Origin: Hallerella porci
GTDB taxonomy: Bacteria > Fibrobacterota > Fibrobacteria > Fibrobacterales > Fibrobacteraceae
NCBI RefSeq assembly: GCF_003148885.1
Contig: NZ_QGHD01000007.1
Coordinates: 1-64,000 of the forward strand
Reading direction: 5' to 3'
Length of the DNA: 64,000 nucleotides
Part shown: piece after piece, positions 48,005 to 56,095 of the stretch
How the letters are laid out: every line of letters begins with the position of its first letter
Numbering within the stretch: the stretch's first letter is position 1
The notes under the pieces: generated by a model
What the model saw: only the letters and a program-made list of their open reading frames with translations
Told to the model about the DNA's origin: nothing
Databases searched by the model: none
Translations under genes and position numbers: made by a program

Positions 48005-48520
48005 TTGAAACGAAAAGTTAAATATCTGCTTTGCCTCATTCTCGTCGGCGGAACGGGGCTTCTTCTGTGGGATCTTTTGGTTTATCCTGAATCGTTGCAT
48101 GTGCCTTCGGCGATTTCATTTGACCACGAAAAACACGGCGAAAATATCGGAGTCGATTGCGCCAAGTGTCATGGGGGAGCAGAAACGGGAATGCGCGCGT
48201 TAATGCCTGCGAAATCGGACTGTATGGATTGTCATAATTTGCCGCTCACCGGCACCGCAGAAGATGAAAAATTGCAAGAAGCGCTCAAAAATGCCTCGGA
48301 TTTTCCGTTTCGTTTTACAAGTCTTTTGCCGGCGAATGTGATTTTCCCGCATGGATTACATACGAAAGCAGGAGTAACTTGCGAAACGTGTCACGGTTCT
48401 GCAAAAGAAATTAACGCGGGAAAGCGTCCGATTGTTCGGATGGAAGATTGTATGGATTGTCATCGCGGAAATCGCGGATTTCCCAAAGCTTCCACGGATT
48501 GTGCGAGGTGTCATCGATGA
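48005..48520 (+). CDS. Pentaheme c-type cytochrome
   Basis: The product has 171 residues. An N-terminal helix (YLLCLILVGGTGLLLWDLLV) anchors or exports it. Five CxxCH heme sites stand at 52-56, 73-77, 126-130, 149-153 and 166-170. Extra His residues in FDHEKHG and FPHGLHT can serve as second axial ligands, as in cytochrome c3/c7 and in the ActA/QrcA/NrfB electron carriers. It should pass electrons in the periplasm. The only start that keeps the helix is TTG at 48005, without a clear ribosome site. The stop overlaps the next start (ATGA), so it is the first gene of a coupled four-gene run. Confidence 0.85.
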   Translation: MKRKVKYLLCLILVGGTGLLLWDLLVYPESLHVPSAISFDHEKHGENIGVDCAKCHGGAETGMRALMPAKSDCMDCHNLPLTGTAEDEKLQEALKNASDFPFRFTSLLPANVIFPHGLHTKAGVTCETCHGSAKEINAGKRPIVRMEDCMDCHRGNRGFPKASTDCARCHR

Positions 48521-49395
48521 AAATTTCGCGGGCGACTTTTCTCAAATTGATGGCGGGAATGTCTGCGCTTTTTTCGCTCGTAAGCTGCCGACGCATGCGT
48601 CCGATTCCCGAAAATTTTCACCGCGTTTCGGTCAAGCCCGATTTAAAACTTTTCGAAGAAGAAATCGCAATCGCCAGCAAGAATACGCCGACGAATGAAA
48701 ATTTAGTGCGCATCTCGCGGCCGGGAGCGCATCCCAAATTTCCGCATGCCGATGTGCGATTTGGCATGGCGATTGATTTGGAAAAATGCAATGGCTGCGG
48801 AAAATGTGCGCTCGCTTGCATGGTTGAAAATAATGTGCCGCGGGTAAACGAAGACGAATCGAAGCGCGGACGCTTTATGCATTGGCTTGAAATGCGCGGC
48901 GATATTCCTGTGATGTGTGCGCATTGTGGCGATGCGCCGTGTGAAAAAGTTTGCCCGACGGGAGCTGCCGTTGCAAGCCCAGACGGATTTTCGGCAATGG
49001 TTTATCCGCGTTGCATTGGGACGCGTTTCTGCGGGGCGAATTGTCCATTGCACGCGCGAAAATTCAATTATACAAGCGCCGAAGAAAATGGATTCGCTTA
49101 TAAATTCAATGCCGAAGTTCCGTTACGTCCGCAAGGCGTGATGGAAAAATGTTCGCTTTGCATTCAGCGTTTACAAAATGCGAGAATTCGTGCGAAAACT
49201 TGGGGCGAAAATTGGGACGGTTCTGGAGTTAAAACCGCTTGTGCAGAAGCGTGTCCGAATCGAGCGATTATTTGCGGAAATTGGTTGGATGCAGATTCGG
49301 AACTCGTGCGTGCAACGCGTGGACGAATTCTGTATGCGCCGAAAGCGATTGCGGATTTTTCGCCCGCTGTCGTTTATCTTTTGGGGAAACTATGA
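48517..49395 (+). CDS. Periplasmic four-cluster ferredoxin lipoprotein (NrfC/PsrB/ActB-like)
   Basis: The product has 292 residues. The N-terminus SRATFLKLMAGMSALFSLVSC looks like a Tat-type export signal with a lipobox Cys24. Four [4Fe-4S] motif groups are visible: CNGCGKCALAC (91-101), CAHCGDAPCEKVCP (134-147), CIGTRFCGANCP (166-177) and CSLC (212-215) with the late CAEACP. This is the layout of the electron-transfer subunit of the DMSO reductase/NrfC/PsrB/ActB group. It should link the pentaheme cytochrome to the membrane subunit. It overlaps both neighbours by four bases (ATGA). GAGG precedes the ATG at 48517. No molybdopterin catalytic subunit is adjacent. Confidence 0.88.
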   Translation: MKISRATFLKLMAGMSALFSLVSCRRMRPIPENFHRVSVKPDLKLFEEEIAIASKNTPTNENLVRISRPGAHPKFPHADVRFGMAIDLEKCNGCGKCALACMVENNVPRVNEDESKRGRFMHWLEMRGDIPVMCAHCGDAPCEKVCPTGAAVASPDGFSAMVYPRCIGTRFCGANCPLHARKFNYTSAEENGFAYKFNAEVPLRPQGVMEKCSLCIQRLQNARIRAKTWGENWDGSGVKTACAEACPNRAIICGNWLDADSELVRATRGRILYAPKAIADFSPAVVYLLGKL

Positions 49396-51032
49396 ATCGG
49401 TATTTGTTGATTTTTGGAATTATCCTTTTGATTCCGGGACTCATCGCTGTGGATTTTGCGCTTGCGTTCGGGCCTGCGTCTTGGGCGATTTCGCAAAAAG
49501 AATTTTGGGGAACGCCGATTTCTAATTTTGTCTTTTGGATTGGACTTGCGCATGCGGGAACTTTTTTCTCGGCGATTCTTCTCGTATTGGGCGCACGCTT
49601 TCAGCATCGCATTGCGTTAATCGCAGAATTTTCCACCTTAGCATCTCTCGTTATCGCGGGCACTTTCCCGCTGATTCATTTGGGAATTCCGAGTCGCTTT
49701 GATGCGATGATTCCCTTTGGCAATGTGCGCACATTTTTAATCAATCCCGAATCTCCGCTCACGTGGGATTTTGTCGCCATCCTCGCTTACACGACGGCTT
49801 CGACTCTTTTTCTTTTGTTGCATCTTTTGAAAACGAAATTTTCAACTCTCGAAAGTTTTCGAAGACCGATGGCGTGGATACTTTTTCCGCTTGTGCTTTG
49901 GGTGCATACGATTGTCTCTCTCGATTTTGCGGTGACATTTGTCCCCGAATGGCAAGGCGCATATTTTCCGCTTTATTTTATTAGCGGCGCGCTTTTCTCG
50001 GGAATTGCGCTGGTGCAAATTTTATTAGAACTTTTGAAACGCCGCGTTCGTCGCATCGAAAGTTTGCTCATCACTTTTTCGTGGGCGATGCTTTCTTTTT
50101 GGATTTGGGAAGCGTTAACAAAAAATATTTGGCATCCAGAAATTCTCGTTTTCGGATTTTTAATTCCGCAGTTGCTTTGGATTCCTTCGTTGCGGGAACG
50201 CTCGATGGTGCGGGCGTCGGCGGCGCTTGCCGTCATCATTTCTCTTTGGTGGGAACGCATTCTTTTGGTGCAAAAAAATCCGCTCGATTGGACTTGGGTG
50301 GACATCGGACTTTTATCATTTGGCATCGGACTTTTTTGCGTTTTATTTGCGCTCCTCCGAATTTTTACGCAGAAATTTTTTGCCAAAGCATTGGACGAAG
50401 AATCGGCAGAAGAATTGCCGAAAAATTTATTTGCAAAACGACCGTTTTTCTTTTCGATTCTTCTCGGCGTTTTCTGCGCCGCAGGATTTGCAACTTACTT
50501 TATCTGTAATGCTTCGGCATTTCCAATTCTTCGCATCGTACCGTTTTTGCTTCCGATTGCAGCGCTTGTCGCTATAGTGAGTTTATCTGGAATCGCAGCG
50601 TGGAAAATTTTTTCCAAGTCAAAAGTTATCGTTTCTTTTATCGCTATTTTTTGCGCTCTCGTTTCGGCTAGTGCATGGATTTACCGCGGGCATGAAACCG
50701 CATATGACGAAGATTACATTCAAGTGAAAGCCGAAAAAACGCAGACGGTGCGCAGCGAACGCGAAGCCGAAAAATTATTCAACGCACGCTGCGCTTCTTG
50801 CCACGGAAAAGATGGAAAGTTCAACAAAAAATTTGTTCGCGAATATTATCCGTTACCGCAAAAACTTTCGCGCGAACGAATCGATTCTCTCGGCGTCGAT
50901 TCGCTTTCGCAAGTCATTTTAAACGGCCGAAATTATATGCAAGCTTTTCGCGGACGCGTTTCGGAATCCGAAGCAAATGCGCTCGTCATGCATTTGAAAA
51001 AATTAGCTGAAAAAAATGCGGAGGCAAAATGA
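49392..51032 (+). CDS. NrfD/PsrC-type quinol-interacting membrane subunit fused to a cytochrome c domain
   Basis: The product has 546 residues. Residues 1-410 form about ten to eleven hydrophobic helices, with the NrfD-like features WGTPISNFVFWIGLAHAG and VHTIVSLDFAVTFVPEWQG. After another helix near 420-440 comes a periplasmic cytochrome c domain with CASCH at 467-471 and a likely Met ligand at 516 (NGRNYMQAF). NrfD subunits exchange electrons or protons with the quinone pool. The fused heme domain recalls ActE of alternative complex III, but as a C-terminal fusion. It starts at ATG 49392, overlapping the ferredoxin gene (ATGA), and overlaps the next gene likewise. Confidence 0.85.
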   Translation: MNRYLLIFGIILLIPGLIAVDFALAFGPASWAISQKEFWGTPISNFVFWIGLAHAGTFFSAILLVLGARFQHRIALIAEFSTLASLVIAGTFPLIHLGIPSRFDAMIPFGNVRTFLINPESPLTWDFVAILAYTTASTLFLLLHLLKTKFSTLESFRRPMAWILFPLVLWVHTIVSLDFAVTFVPEWQGAYFPLYFISGALFSGIALVQILLELLKRRVRRIESLLITFSWAMLSFWIWEALTKNIWHPEILVFGFLIPQLLWIPSLRERSMVRASAALAVIISLWWERILLVQKNPLDWTWVDIGLLSFGIGLFCVLFALLRIFTQKFFAKALDEESAEELPKNLFAKRPFFFSILLGVFCAAGFATYFICNASAFPILRIVPFLLPIAALVAIVSLSGIAAWKIFSKSKVIVSFIAIFCALVSASAWIYRGHETAYDEDYIQVKAEKTQTVRSEREAEKLFNARCASCHGKDGKFNKKFVREYYPLPQKLSRERIDSLGVDSLSQVILNGRNYMQAFRGRVSESEANALVMHLKKLAEKNAEAK

Positions 51033-51490
51033 GTTCTTTTTCGTATATGCTCGCCGCTCTTTTTGCGATGATTCCTGCGCCCTTTTTATTCCGCGGAAAA
51101 TTGCCGTTAGAATTACGCGGTGCTTCGATTGCGATGGTGCTTTTGGCGGCGGAGTTTTTTATTTACTTTGTCGCTTCGCCCACTTATCCGCAATATGAAA
51201 TTTTACCCTTTCGAATGCTCGCATTAACCCTTTGCATTTCCTCATTATTTTTAGAAATGCGGCGACGCCTTTTTGGAATTCTCGCATCTTTACTTTGGAT
51301 GTGGATTGAATTTTTTGGAATGCTTTCGCTTTCGTATCGCGGCGAAGAATTTCATCCGGCGACGTTAATTATTTTAGCTTCGACATTTCTTCCGATTTAT
51401 TTTTTGCATCCGTATAAACGCGAATCGCGATTTATTCTCGCGGTCTTGTGGGTCGCGGCTTGGATTTTTTCTTACGAAGTGCGATTTTAA
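51029..51490 (+). CDS. Small membrane protein, last gene of the redox operon
   Basis: The product has 153 residues and four or five hydrophobic helices covering nearly its whole length (4-22, 32-50, 62-78, 86-105, 108-125, 130-148). It has no cysteines, no heme site and no family that I recognise. It starts at ATG 51029, overlapping the NrfD-cytochrome stop (ATGA), so its synthesis is tied to the complex. By position it could be an extra membrane subunit like ActF or an assembly factor. This is inference only. Confidence 0.75.
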   Translation: MSSFSYMLAALFAMIPAPFLFRGKLPLELRGASIAMVLLAAEFFIYFVASPTYPQYEILPFRMLALTLCISSLFLEMRRRLFGILASLLWMWIEFFGMLSLSYRGEEFHPATLIILASTFLPIYFLHPYKRESRFILAVLWVAAWIFSYEVRF

Positions 51491-51497
51491 TTTGAAA

Positions 51498-52097
51498 TTA
51501 TTCTTCGGGAAGTAAATCGCCACGGATAATTTCAATGGAATCGCCGACGAGGCTGATGATATTTGTCGGCTTAATTTCAATCGGTCCGCAGTCGATCATC
51601 ATATCGACTTTATGTTCGAAAAGTTTCCACAAATCATCGGGCTCGGTGAAAACTTCATCGTCCGAAATTTTTGCCGCTGTGCTCAAAATCGGTTTGTCGT
51701 AAATGCGGAAAAGTTCTTTGAAAAAAGGATGCTCGGGCATCCGGAAGCCGACTTCGGGACGTTTGACATCGAGCTTGCGAGCGATGGAAGGATCTGCGGG
51801 GAGAATAAATGTATAAGGCCCTGGCACGCGATGCTTCATAATTTGAAAAGCGAAATTGCTCACGTGAGCGTATTCCGAAGCTTTCCGAATATCGGGCAAA
51901 ATAATCGCCATCACAAATTTTTTCATCGGCTTTTTCAACTGATACAAGCGATGAATTGCCCGCGAAGATTCGGCGGAACATCCGATGGCATAGCCCGATT
52001 CCGTCGGGTATAAAACGAGACCGTCTTTGTCTAAAATGTCGGCGGCTTGTTTGACGAAACGAGCCTGCGGATTTAAGGGATGAACTTCTAAACGCAT
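51498..52097 (-). CDS. YrdC/YciO/Sua5 family protein
   Basis: The product has 199 residues. The YrdC fold is recognised by LYPTESGYAIGC, KPMKKFVMAIIL, GPYTFILPAD, VGFRMPEHPF and the late STAAKISDDEV. Sua5/YrdC makes threonylcarbamoyl-AMP for the t6A base of tRNAs. YciO paralogues of this length share the fold but may not. The SxTxK/R core is changed to LKKPMKK here, a YciO-like feature. It converges on the redox operon eight bases away and has its own start 37 bases downstream of the yraN-like gene. Confidence 0.82.
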   Translation of the reverse strand: MRLEVHPLNPQARFVKQAADILDKDGLVLYPTESGYAIGCSAESSRAIHRLYQLKKPMKKFVMAIILPDIRKASEYAHVSNFAFQIMKHRVPGPYTFILPADPSIARKLDVKRPEVGFRMPEHPFFKELFRIYDKPILSTAAKISDDEVFTEPDDLWKLFEHKVDMMIDCGPIEIKPTNIISLVGDSIEIIRGDLLPEE

Positions 52098-52134
52098 AGA
52101 AAAAAAATAGTAAAGCGAAAAAGGGAAGCGAAAA

Positions 52135-52533
52135 TTAGCAACGCGGAATGACTTGGTTTGCGACGAAGGCGTCTTCGTAATGCGTGAGTTTCGGCGTTCC
52201 TTGACTCATGTCCACGCAGACGACATCAAATCGCGATTTCTGATCGAGGCCTCCGTGAAAATGCAAAAAGTGCACTGCGGTTTTCCAAACTTGAAATTGC
52301 TTTTTGGAATTGACGCGGCTTGCGGGCGTCCCTTTGTCGGATTTCCAAACGGATTTTACTTCGACAAAAAGAATGGTGCCGTCGGGCGCTTGGGCGACGA
52401 TATCTAATTCGCCGTTGAGATAGCGATAATTGCGGGCGAGAATGCGACAATTTTTTCGGCAAAGAAATGCGGTCGCTTGCAATTCGGCGAAGCGTCCTTT
52501 CTTTTTATTCGCACTTTTCCCTGCGTCGATCAT
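52135..52533 (-). CDS. YraN family (UPF0102) nuclease-like protein
   Basis: The product has 132 residues. The family pattern is clear: GRFAELQATAFLCRKNCRIL, NYRYLNGELDIVAQ and ILFVEVKSV, the last two giving the D and ExK of a PD-(D/E)XK fold. YraN proteins resemble Holliday-junction resolvases, but their role is unproven. The ATG overlaps the kinase stop by four bases (ATGA), so it is translated with the kinase. A start at 52533 gives a short basic N-terminus. Confidence 0.88.
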   Translation of the reverse strand: MIDAGKSANKKKGRFAELQATAFLCRKNCRILARNYRYLNGELDIVAQAPDGTILFVEVKSVWKSDKGTPASRVNSKKQFQVWKTAVHFLHFHGGLDQKSRFDVVCVDMSQGTPKLTHYEDAFVANQVIPRC

Positions 52534-54017
52534 TGCGCTAAAAGCCCGAGAATACGGATTTCAGAAATCGCTAAATCTTTCGATGGATCGGTAACGTAAG
52601 CTTCATCTAAAAAGACTTGAATCTCGGTCGTTTCCATCGCTTTGATTTGCGGATACTGAACGCCTTTAATGTCTTCGAGCTGAATCGTTTGACGAAATCC
52701 TTCGCGGGTTAAAAGCGAAAGAGTTTTCGGTTTATTAAAAACTAAAAAGCGATCGCCAAATTCATCGTCAACGGATTTTTGAAAACCCGAAGCGAATCCG
52801 ATTTGTGTAATGATTGTCGGCGAACTAAAATCGAGAATGAAAATGGGAGAACGCGAATTTTCTTGTAACGGAAGAAGCCATGCGCTGCGCAAATTTTTAT
52901 CGAATAAATTGGACGGTTCATAATCGCCATCGCCTTCGACATTTTTTTCTTCGTAGGCGGCGCGAATATCAACGCTTGAAACTTCTTGCAAAGTTTTGGG
53001 CGGTTTATAAGTTAAGAGAAACGCTAAAATTAAAAGGATTAAAAGCGGGAAAAGGGCAATCGCAAAAAGCAGCACATGCTTGTTGGTAAATTTTCGCACA
53101 TTGTCCGTGACTTTATTGGAAATCAGCGGACGATTTTTGATGAGTTTACGAATGCTCATCGTATCGTGTCCGTGATGCTGTTCACCCGGATGTAACGGCG
53201 CAAAAACAATGTCGAGCGCATCCAAAAATTCTTGCATATTTTTGAAGCGATCCGAAACATTTTTCTTCAAGCATTTTAAGATGAGCTTCGCTAAACCCTT
53301 CGGCATATCGGGACGGAAATTTTCGGGATTTGGCGGTTCTTCTTGAACGTGCTTCATCGCAATTTCGATGGGCTTGGAACCGGTGAAGGGAAGGCGTCCG
53401 CAAGTCATTTCAAATAAGATGACGCCTAAACTGTAAATGTCCGAGCCGATGGTAACTTCGTCGCCGTGACATTGTTCGGGCGACATATATTCGGGAGTGC
53501 CCATCGTCATGCCGGTGAGAGTCAGACGTTCCGCAGATTGAATGTGCGAAATGCCGAAGTCCATCAAATACACGCGGTTATCGTGCGTAATCATGATGTT
53601 CGAAGGTTTCACATCGCGGTGCACAATTCCTTTGCTGTGTGCATATAAAAGCCCGCGGGCAACTTGCTTCGTAATGATTTCAATCGCATCAAAATCTAAA
53701 CGGCGGCGGTGCTCCAAAAGTTCTGAAAGCGTACTGCCGCGGACGTATGTCATCGAAATGAAAAGCTGATTTCCTTGACGACCGAAGTCAAAAACTTGCA
53801 CCAAATTTTGGTGGTCCAATTCCTTCATCGCTTGCGCTTCCATGTAGAATCTTTCAATCGATTCTTTGTCCGAAGAAGCGTCGAGAACTTTTAAAGCGAC
53901 TTCGCGTTTTAAATTTTTTTGCAGGGCTTTGTAAACGTAGCCCATACCGCCTTTGCCGAGGACGCCGAGAAGTTCATAGTTTTCGTTGAACGGTCTTGGA
54001 AATTTTTCTGCTGTCAT
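52530..54017 (-). CDS. Membrane Ser/Thr protein kinase with extracytoplasmic discoidin-like domain
   Basis: The product has 495 residues. The kinase domain covers residues 13-275 with GKGGMG (21-26), Lys43, the catalytic HRDVKPSN (133-140), DFG (153-155) and APE-like PEYMSPEQ. A cytoplasmic linker leads to one helix (about 314-337). Outside is a domain of 150 residues resembling F5/8C (discoidin) or NADase-type glycan-binding modules (SNLFDKNLRSAWL, ILDFSSPTIITQIGFASG). It may sense a ligand outside and phosphorylate inside. It overlaps the FHA-ABC transporter gene upstream and the yraN-like gene downstream by four bases each. Confidence 0.88.
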   Translation of the reverse strand: MTAEKFPRPFNENYELLGVLGKGGMGYVYKALQKNLKREVALKVLDASSDKESIERFYMEAQAMKELDHQNLVQVFDFGRQGNQLFISMTYVRGSTLSELLEHRRRLDFDAIEIITKQVARGLLYAHSKGIVHRDVKPSNIMITHDNRVYLMDFGISHIQSAERLTLTGMTMGTPEYMSPEQCHGDEVTIGSDIYSLGVILFEMTCGRLPFTGSKPIEIAMKHVQEEPPNPENFRPDMPKGLAKLILKCLKKNVSDRFKNMQEFLDALDIVFAPLHPGEQHHGHDTMSIRKLIKNRPLISNKVTDNVRKFTNKHVLLFAIALFPLLILLILAFLLTYKPPKTLQEVSSVDIRAAYEEKNVEGDGDYEPSNLFDKNLRSAWLLPLQENSRSPIFILDFSSPTIITQIGFASGFQKSVDDEFGDRFLVFNKPKTLSLLTREGFRQTIQLEDIKGVQYPQIKAMETTEIQVFLDEAYVTDPSKDLAISEIRILGLLAQ

Positions 54018-56095
54018 TTTGCGTTCTTCATGATTTTTAGAGCGAGAATGGATATAATATAAATTAAGAGAGCGATTCCCGCGGGAATGAAAATGTCGAA
54101 ATGTTCCGGATTTAGCCCGGTAAAGAGAGCTTTGAGCGCAGACTGATTATAACTTGTCCAAATGAGATGCGAAAGAAATTGCGCAATGCTCGAAGTTTGA
54201 TCAAAGGGAACGAGAGCGCCCGAAAGTGCAATCTGCGGTAAAATGACGAGCGGAAGAAATGCGTTTGCTTGTCCCGGATTTTTCGCAAAAGTGCTGAGGA
54301 AAATTCCTGCGGAAGCGGCGGGAAGAACGCTGCAAAAAAGAATGACGAATAATAAAATGCTCGGAAAAACTGCGATGTTTTTGGCGATGAACGCATAGAC
54401 AATTCCGGTTTCAAGAAAGGCAAAAAATGCGGTGAAAATAAGCTTCGTCGTGATGACGGCAAAGGGCGATGCGCCGCGGCGAAATTCGTCTAAAAGTAAA
54501 TTTTTTTCTTGGACGATTTCGCGCACCGAAAGAGAAAGAGCAAACCAGTTCGCGCATAAAATCAAAGCGAAAGCTGCGACCCAAAGCGATGACGAATTCG
54601 AAAAAATCATCGAAAGCAAAGCGCCGATAATTAACGGCTGCAAAATGAGAGAAAATAATTTTCCGAAGTCGCGGAACCACTGCCGAAATAAAACGGGGAA
54701 AAAAGAAAAGAAAAAATTTTTGTGTGAAACTTTTGGAAAATAACTGCGCGCGGATTCGGGAAAATCCACTGCGGTTTCTAATTTGGAATCGCGCCAATTT
54801 TCTGCGGTTTTATCGGAAAGAGTTTCGAGAATGCCTTCGGGATCTTCGGCGTTGAAATAATGAAACGCATCTTCTGGCGTCCCGTAAAATCCCACTTTTC
54901 CTTGATGAATGAGTAGGACTTTATCCGAAATTTGTAACGCTTCGTAACTGTGCGTTGTGAGAATGACCGTATGGCCTTTGGCAGCGAGTTCTTTTAAATG
55001 ACCGCAAAGACGTTTCGCATTCAGCGGATCCAAACCCGAAAGCGGTTCATCGAGAAGAATAATTCCCGGTGCGCTCATCAGTTGCGTCGCAATCGCTATG
55101 CGGCGGCGTTCTCCGCCCGAAAGGACAGCGATGCGGCTATCGGCTAACGCAGAAATATGCAACAACTGAAGCAATTTGCAGGCGCGTTTTTCGGTTTCTT
55201 TTTTCGTGTAATCTTTCGGAAGAGAAATGCGGGCGGCGAGTTTTAACGTCTCCATGACCGTGAGCGCATTTCGCAAAAGCGGTTCTTGTGGTAAGTAAGC
55301 GATTTCGCGGCGAATGTTCGTTTGTTCGTAATCGATGCCATCTAAAAAAATGGAACCGTTTTGGCGTTTGACTTTTCCTGCGAGAAGTTCTAAGAGTGTG
55401 CTTTTTCCTTGTCCGCTTAATCCGATAATCGAAAGAATTTTCCCGGCGGGCAAAGAAAATCGAATGTCTTCTAAAATATTTTTTTTCGAAAGATGAACGG
55501 AAACATCGTGGACGGTTAACGAAAATCCGATGTCTTTTTGATGCAGAAAAATATTGCCATCGCGAAATTCCAAAAGACACCACGGCAATTTTAAGGTTTC
55601 GTGATTTTCTAAAAATTGTACGCGATGAAAATGCGATTGTAAAAAAATGAGCTTTAAACGTTTTCCGCACAAAGTCGCTTGCGCCAATTTTTTCGGACAA
55701 GCGGGATGCAAAATGGTTCCCGGAATATCGTCGTCTTCACCGCGCCCGAGGAAAATCGGAGAATCTTTGGAAAGCGGAATCGCGGGCACATCTTCGAGAG
55801 AACGCACATGAGAAAGCGTAAGCTCATTTTGTTTTAACGCAAAACGAAGTTGTTGCAAACCGAGCAAGAAAATATCGCCGTCTTCAATTTCTTTTTGTTC
55901 AATATTTTTCCCGGCGAAAAGAGTTCCCGAAGTTTGACTTAAATTGGTGAAAATCCAACGTCCATTTTGAAATTCAATTTTTGCATGCATGCGCGAAACG
56001 GAAGCATCGTGAAGTTCAAAATTCACATTTTTTCCGCGCCCGATGAAAAATGGTTCATCCGGAGAAATTTTTTGCACCAAAAAAGTAGAAGCCAT
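54014..56095 (-). CDS. FHA domain-ABC ATPase-permease fusion (ABCG-like)
   Basis: The product has 693 residues. An FHA domain at about 15-75 (FFIGRGKN, SRMHAKIEF) recognises phosphothreonine, and a second, degenerate FHA-like stretch starts near 113 (PIFLGRGEDDD). The ABC ATPase has Walker A GLSGQGKST at 225-233, signature LSGGERRR from 325, Walker B IILLDEPLSGLD and switch His in TTHSYEAL. The C-terminal 220 residues form about six helices of the ABC-2 type. The order ATPase then membrane domain is that of ABCG half-transporters, so it probably dimerises. It overlaps the kinase gene by four bases, so kinase control through the FHA domain is likely. The substrate is unknown. Confidence 0.88.
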   Translation of the reverse strand: MASTFLVQKISPDEPFFIGRGKNVNFELHDASVSRMHAKIEFQNGRWIFTNLSQTSGTLFAGKNIEQKEIEDGDIFLLGLQQLRFALKQNELTLSHVRSLEDVPAIPLSKDSPIFLGRGEDDDIPGTILHPACPKKLAQATLCGKRLKLIFLQSHFHRVQFLENHETLKLPWCLLEFRDGNIFLHQKDIGFSLTVHDVSVHLSKKNILEDIRFSLPAGKILSIIGLSGQGKSTLLELLAGKVKRQNGSIFLDGIDYEQTNIRREIAYLPQEPLLRNALTVMETLKLAARISLPKDYTKKETEKRACKLLQLLHISALADSRIAVLSGGERRRIAIATQLMSAPGIILLDEPLSGLDPLNAKRLCGHLKELAAKGHTVILTTHSYEALQISDKVLLIHQGKVGFYGTPEDAFHYFNAEDPEGILETLSDKTAENWRDSKLETAVDFPESARSYFPKVSHKNFFFSFFPVLFRQWFRDFGKLFSLILQPLIIGALLSMIFSNSSSLWVAAFALILCANWFALSLSVREIVQEKNLLLDEFRRGASPFAVITTKLIFTAFFAFLETGIVYAFIAKNIAVFPSILLFVILFCSVLPAASAGIFLSTFAKNPGQANAFLPLVILPQIALSGALVPFDQTSSIAQFLSHLIWTSYNQSALKALFTGLNPEHFDIFIPAGIALLIYIISILALKIMKNAK

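Follow-up and report, generated by a model that had tools for sequence, protein, structure and literature searches.

The window analyzed here, a 64,000-nucleotide stretch of contig NZ_QGHD01000007.1 of Hallerella porci (family Fibrobacteraceae), raises the question of what a compact redox operon represents in a Fibrobacterota fermenter and where its electrons would go. The four genes of this operon (A–D, 48005–51490; Table 1) lie on contig C7 of the genome (2.85 Mb) and overlap by ATGA at all three joints. A preliminary description had given these coordinates, genes, and joints together with six c-type hemes, and re-reading of the sequence bore out all of them (by CXXCH count, five hemes in A and one in C). 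Its general reading, a quinone-type membrane subunit with an iron-sulfur (Fe-S) protein and a multiheme cytochrome, is likewise supported, as is its statement that no catalytic subunit adjoins the operon. The gene order, which it proposed to seek in other Fibrobacterota, is conserved across four Fibrobacteraceae genera. Because the hemes and cluster ligands are kept along with this order, the set is far beyond chance.

The best matches of A, B, and C among solved structures are all subunits of alternative complex III (ACIII; ActABCDEF), which makes the complexes of Rhodothermus marinus (6f0k) and Flavobacterium johnsoniae (6btm) the right likeness and suggests that A–D represent a reduced ACIII. 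ACIII itself is known. What is new is a form without the B1 domain, ActD, and ActF, but with an ActC-cytochrome fusion and an added protein, D. The novelty that the preliminary description had suspected in the combination with the fourth membrane gene holds within the databases searched, and no description of ACIII in Fibrobacter was found in the literature outside subscription papers. The missing B1, the topological reason for the fusion, two partner cytochromes, and heme-less remnants were not part of that description.

The product of gene A has five heme motifs (CAKCH, CMDCH, CETCH, CMDCH, and CARCH), all invariant in 14 relatives, and a hydrophobic N-terminus. It matches Cytochrome_C7 in Pfam (2.4e-16), and its best PDB matches are ActA chains (8k9e_A, 1e-17; 6f0k_A, 2e-16); like ActA, it is a pentaheme cytochrome with an N-terminal membrane helix. 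In R. marinus, ActB consists of a cofactor-free, molybdoenzyme-like (Mo-like) domain B1 (residues 75–735) fused to a cluster domain B2 (residues 736–1039), which holds one [3Fe-4S] and three [4Fe-4S] clusters (PMC5928083). Residues 67–288 of B match residues 780–1022 of 6f0k_B (5e-46 in the PDB search; 2e-63 by profile). B is thus an ActB-type leader, which aligns weakly to 6f0k_B 54–78 by profile, followed directly by B2. B has a lipobox cysteine (LVSC24), and its 15 Fe-S cysteines are conserved in 14 relatives. These 15 cysteines would fit three [4Fe-4S] clusters and one [3Fe-4S] cluster, the types being assigned from sequence, rather than four clusters of a single type; the number agrees with the preliminary description. 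B retains the ActB motif RCIGxRxC...C, and its [3Fe-4S]-type motif CIGTRFCGANC corresponds to CIGTRYCSNNC in R. marinus ActB, which is consistent with a [3Fe-4S] cluster adjoining the quinol. In each Fibrobacteraceae locus that was read (with some genomes counted twice), B has about 288–316 amino acids; elsewhere, whether in Fibrobacterota of other families or in other phyla, most unsplit ActB proteins have 900–1,170.

The leader of B also varies within the family. In other genera it reads DRREFLK...LFGC, a twin-arginine signal with a lipobox, and in the window's genus (48517–48590; relatives L032, L034, and L005) the twin-arginine stretch DRREFLK is replaced by SRA(T/S)FLK. This cluster-bearing lipoprotein may thus have switched to another export route in that genus.

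Gene C encodes a protein predicted to have 13 helices and a class I cytochrome domain. An ActC part of 10 helices (residues ~1–335) is followed by extra helices (349–431) and a cytochrome c domain (~451–546) with the heme motif CASCH at residues 467–471. The match to ActC is strong (6btm_C, 1e-35 against PDB; 9e-55 by profile), and ActC chains are the first fold matches of the AlphaFold model. The heme domain matches Cytochrome_CBB3 in Pfam (3e-10) as well as the ActE chains 6lod_E and 6f0k_E, although generic class I cytochromes score equally; its heme histidine and a candidate axial methionine, M516, are invariant in the full-length rows examined. For the quinol site, residues H139, S164, D169, D253, and R395 of R. 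marinus ActC, with roles described previously (PMC8076601; PMC5928083), correspond to H96, S121, D126, D178, and R289 of C, all of which are invariant in every full-length C examined. The ActC part of the operon thus keeps the quinol-site residues and the gate arginine.

The fusion has a plausible structural reason. The predicted loops of C carry on average 13.4 lysines and arginines inside versus 5.9 outside (14 rows), and this positive-inside bias is consistent with an N-terminus inside and a heme domain outside. Ten helices would leave the C-terminus in the cytoplasm; three more would flip it to the periplasm and place the heme domain on the side of A and B. In many Fibrobacter C proteins, moreover, helices 10 and 11 are separated by a variable acidic stretch (alignment A1, columns 330–400; compare L043 with L038 and L020), and some of these proteins have a low-complexity C-terminal tail. 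Both are missing from the window's genus.

Protein D has no family above the cut-off in Pfam or NCBIfam. A fold search of its predicted model (predicted local distance difference test, pLDDT, 89) against PDB yielded chance matches only, with none at E<=0.001. Residues W90, W92, W141, W145, P60, M63, C69, G97, and G105 are invariant in a 25-row alignment, and within the databases searched D occurs only with C and only in Fibrobacteraceae. The idea that either D or the three-helix extension of C is a broken ActF was rejected by profile comparison (E 0.5–0.8 local and 0.07–0.95 global, probabilities <1%).

Table 1. Coordinates of the operon genes, adjoining genes, and separately encoded cytochromes and CcsA (G000, genome of the window).
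Feature	Coordinates	Strand	Start and length	Description
Gene A	48005..48520	+	TTG start, 171 aa	ActA-like pentaheme c-type cytochrome with N-terminal membrane anchor
Gene B	48517..49395	+	ATG start, 292 aa	Fe-S lipoprotein; ActB leader and ActB domain B2, without Mo-like B1
Gene C	49392..51032	+	ATG start, 546 aa	ActC with three extra helices and C-terminal monoheme cytochrome c
Gene D	51029..51490	+	ATG start, 153 aa	Polytopic membrane protein of no known family, constant companion of C
Adjoining genes	51498..56095	-		YrdC/Sua5-like, YraN-like, serine/threonine kinase, and FHA-domain ABC transporter genes
Cytochrome X	G000:C1:239227-239583			Small monoheme cytochrome (L169)
Cytochrome Y	G000:C21:36161-36649			Membrane-anchored monoheme cytochrome
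CcsA	G000:C1:71956-72546			CcsA-type cytochrome assembly protein

Compared with ACIII, the operon has the same total of six hemes and four clusters but lacks the ~700-residue B1, ActD, and ActF; it has an ActE-like monoheme domain fused to ActC through the three extra helices, and the added D. Queries with B1, ActD, and ActF recovered the canonical loci and no Fibrobacteraceae locus. ActD had no match in Fibrobacteraceae loci or in 185 kb of the window's own genome, and ActF had none near the operon. All three parts are present in the canonical ACIII loci of other phyla and of Fibrobacterota families other than Fibrobacteraceae. Two canonical loci of the same phylum (L048 and L049) have homologous A, B2, and C, whereas their B has ~1,040 amino acids including B1, ActD, ActE, and ActF are separate (ActD by Pfam), and COX1 is nearby; no oxygen reductase was found in the window's genome. 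In the B tree, the Fibrobacteraceae form is a single, deeply separate clade with a very long stem and shows no particular affinity to the canonical ACIII found elsewhere in Fibrobacterota.

Full-length C is present in 71 of the 108 Fibrobacteraceae genomes tabulated (a few copies are broken by contig ends), and its distribution follows that of cytochrome maturation. CcsA was found in 68 of these 71 carriers versus three of the 37 other genomes, 17 heme-less and 20 further ones (Fisher p 4e-21, counting genomes rather than lineages or independent events). Of the three genomes that depart from the pattern, two (G044 and G146) encode a COX1 themselves, and the third (G065) is 65% complete. The window's genome has one CcsA-type protein, whereas the lack of any heme maturation system would, according to the preliminary description, have spoken against a heme-bearing operon. 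Cytochrome Y is present in 70 of the 71 carriers and in none of 17 heme-less genomes described below. Cytochrome X lies directly upstream of A in other genera, for example in the order mntP-like, short-chain dehydrogenase, X, A, B, C, and D in genome G149. In the window's genus, X is still beside the mntP-like and dehydrogenase genes but away from A–D, and it is retained apart from the operon in six of six genomes. In the window's genome, X also directly precedes a V-type ATPase operon. Two groups of motif matches (C1:218 kb and C8:84 kb) were rejected as extra cytochromes, as no cytochrome gene is present and the C8 group falls within a UvrA-like open reading frame. Outside the family, a metagenome-assembled genome labelled Kiritimatiellae has two Fibrobacter-type copies of the operon (L108, JAFXTB010000120.1; L111, JAFXTB010000006.1), which are probably contaminating contigs.

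Based on sequence, the grounds for a functional reading are the identity of A, B, and C with ACIII parts, the conservation of quinol-site, cluster, and heme ligands, the lack of B1, ActD, and ActF in the cluster, and co-inheritance with CcsA, X, and Y. From these we infer assembly into a complex, the direction of electron flow, its coupling to protons, the acceptor, and the role of D. Menaquinol would be oxidized at the periplasmic side of C, in its ActC part, and electrons would pass to the [3Fe-4S] cluster of B, along the heme wire of A, and to the heme domain tethered to C, which the three extra helices would hold on the side of A and B. From there, they would move to the monoheme cytochromes X and Y, whose maturation would depend on the CcsA-type protein, and finally to a reductase in the periplasm or at the cell surface or to an oxidant outside the cell. 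D would be a family-specific membrane partner of C. We consider this chain of events in a reduced ACIII probable, and the most likely function of the operon is that of a menaquinol:cytochrome c oxidoreductase feeding a periplasmic acceptor. In F. johnsoniae, ActE is not required to pass electrons to aa3 and may supply different acceptors (PMC8552683); this is in line with an ACIII core that works without an oxidase.

Several points weigh against this reading. No known terminal acceptor was found, as neither the window's genome nor the carriers listed have COX1, bd oxidase, NrfA, or cytochrome c peroxidase/MauG. Oxygen reductases were thus rejected as the acceptor for carriers, and cytochrome c peroxidase was rejected for Fibrobacteraceae, where it has no match. 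Four weak NrfA matches fall below the cut-off, at positions in or adjoining gene A. The count of other c-type cytochromes is incomplete, since a CXXCH search gave 160 matches versus 81 for the reversed pattern and is too noisy. The search for B1, ActD, and ActF away from the operon covered 185 kb of the genome. Moreover, the proposed proton route of ACIII uses residues of ActD and ActF (PMC5928083), which are not in the cluster, and energy coupling may therefore be lost or different. Finally, the related Qrc complex runs the opposite way, and direction is not set by sequence alone.

This last point leads to a different reading of the same genes, in which periplasmic electrons from a hydrogenase, a formate dehydrogenase, or an extracellular source would be taken up by the cytochromes and passed to menaquinone, thereby supporting the conversion of fumarate to succinate. 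The preliminary description had likened the operon to NrfBCD, Qrc, and ACIII alike. QrcABCD, the menaquinone reductase of sulfate reducers, does combine a multiheme cytochrome c, an Fe-S protein, and an NrfD-type subunit with a periplasmic-side quinone site; QrcCD works without proton pumping, and Fibrobacter metabolism ends in menaquinone-linked fumarate reduction, with hydrogen-linked fumarate reduction reported in F. succinogenes (PMC3079729). The scores are significant but sub-threshold (QrcA against A, 72.9 bits; QrcC against B, 143 bits), far under the cut-offs of 180 and 400, and the solved structures that match best are ACIII chains. C gives a good alignment with ActC but no match to a Qrc membrane-subunit model, A has five hemes, and the cluster has no QrcB-like Mo subunit. 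Qrc, with its flow toward menaquinone, is therefore not supported as the likeness, and we regard an electron-accepting role of this kind as unlikely.

A quinol dehydrogenase module like NrfBCD or DsrJOP, dedicated to one periplasmic reductase encoded elsewhere, appears improbable as well. Such modules often serve a reductase, and none adjoins the operon here; NrfBCD and DsrMKJOP resemble A–D in having a pentaheme (NrfB) or multiheme cytochrome, an Fe-S protein, and an NrfD-like membrane subunit, and DsrO and DsrP score 128 bits with B and 34 bits with C. However, all Qrc, Dsr, and Nrf models of NCBIfam remain below their cut-offs for the A–D proteins. C has no match to Pfam NrfD and the genome has no NrfA, and membership in the NrfD/Nrf group was rejected on these grounds; the carriers listed also lack NrfA, and the cluster has no DsrMKJ partner. 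C has its own ActE-like cytochrome domain, which together with the separate X and Y suggests carrier delivery, as in ACIII. The remaining explanation, that the operon is a relic of an aerobic ACIII, now functionless and in decay, could account for the missing terminal oxidases and for one Fibrobacter lineage that has lost the hemes, the Fe-S protein, and maturation. Yet the carriers show no variation in any heme, cluster, or quinol ligand and have retained CcsA, X, and Y together with the operon, and pN/pS among full-length relatives is 0.25–0.29 for C and 0.13–0.20 for D, which makes decay very improbable.

The heme-less lineage itself comprises 17 Fibrobacter genomes with a shorter protein, C' (~415–430 amino acids), that ends before the cytochrome domain, and without CcsA or Y. 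In the four neighborhoods read (L044–L047; genomes G106, G060, G102, and G114), there is likewise no A, B, or X, and the C' and D genes still overlap. The adjoining mntP-like and ligA pair recurs at the intact G104 operon (L043), indicating that this is the same locus, and the D tree places the lineage inside the Fibrobacter carriers, indicating that the heme-less state is a loss. At the quinol site of C', H139 is replaced by Y and R395 by C in all four (R. marinus numbering), and S164 and D169 are lost in two of the four. The pN/pS values of 0.15–0.30 for C' and 0.09–0.20 for D, obtained with dS near saturation, suggest that both genes are maintained by purifying selection. C' and D thus form an NrfD-type membrane pair under such selection without a cofactor partner.

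In the window's genus, the operon is flanked by aspS and the YrdC/Sua5-like gene. The adjoining YrdC/Sua5-YraN-kinase-FHA ABC neighborhood on the other strand is kept in this genus and at least partly in several other genera.

ACIII is otherwise linked to oxygen respiration, and here it is found in gut bacteria thought to be purely fermentative. A published survey of the phylum states that Fibrobacteraceae lack major components of the electron transport chain and cannot respire, and the word cytochrome is absent from the genome paper of F. succinogenes S85. A conserved, maturation-linked ACIII core in most of the family contradicts this picture. As a tentative proposal, which we hold to be possible but rather doubtful as a whole, gut Fibrobacteraceae would respire anaerobically in a way not yet described, using a minimal ACIII core for which B1, ActD, and ActF are dispensable, and the heme-less C'-D pair, lacking redox cofactors and key quinol-site residues, would have been selected for a new, non-redox membrane function. 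The heme-less remnant provides material for asking what an NrfD-type membrane protein does alone, and the operon is a naturally minimal ACIII in which the contributions of B1, ActD, and ActF can be probed, with a cultured carrier available within the window's genus (F. intestinalis ATCC 43854). Taken together, these patterns would imply an unnamed electron outlet in major fiber degraders of the gut.

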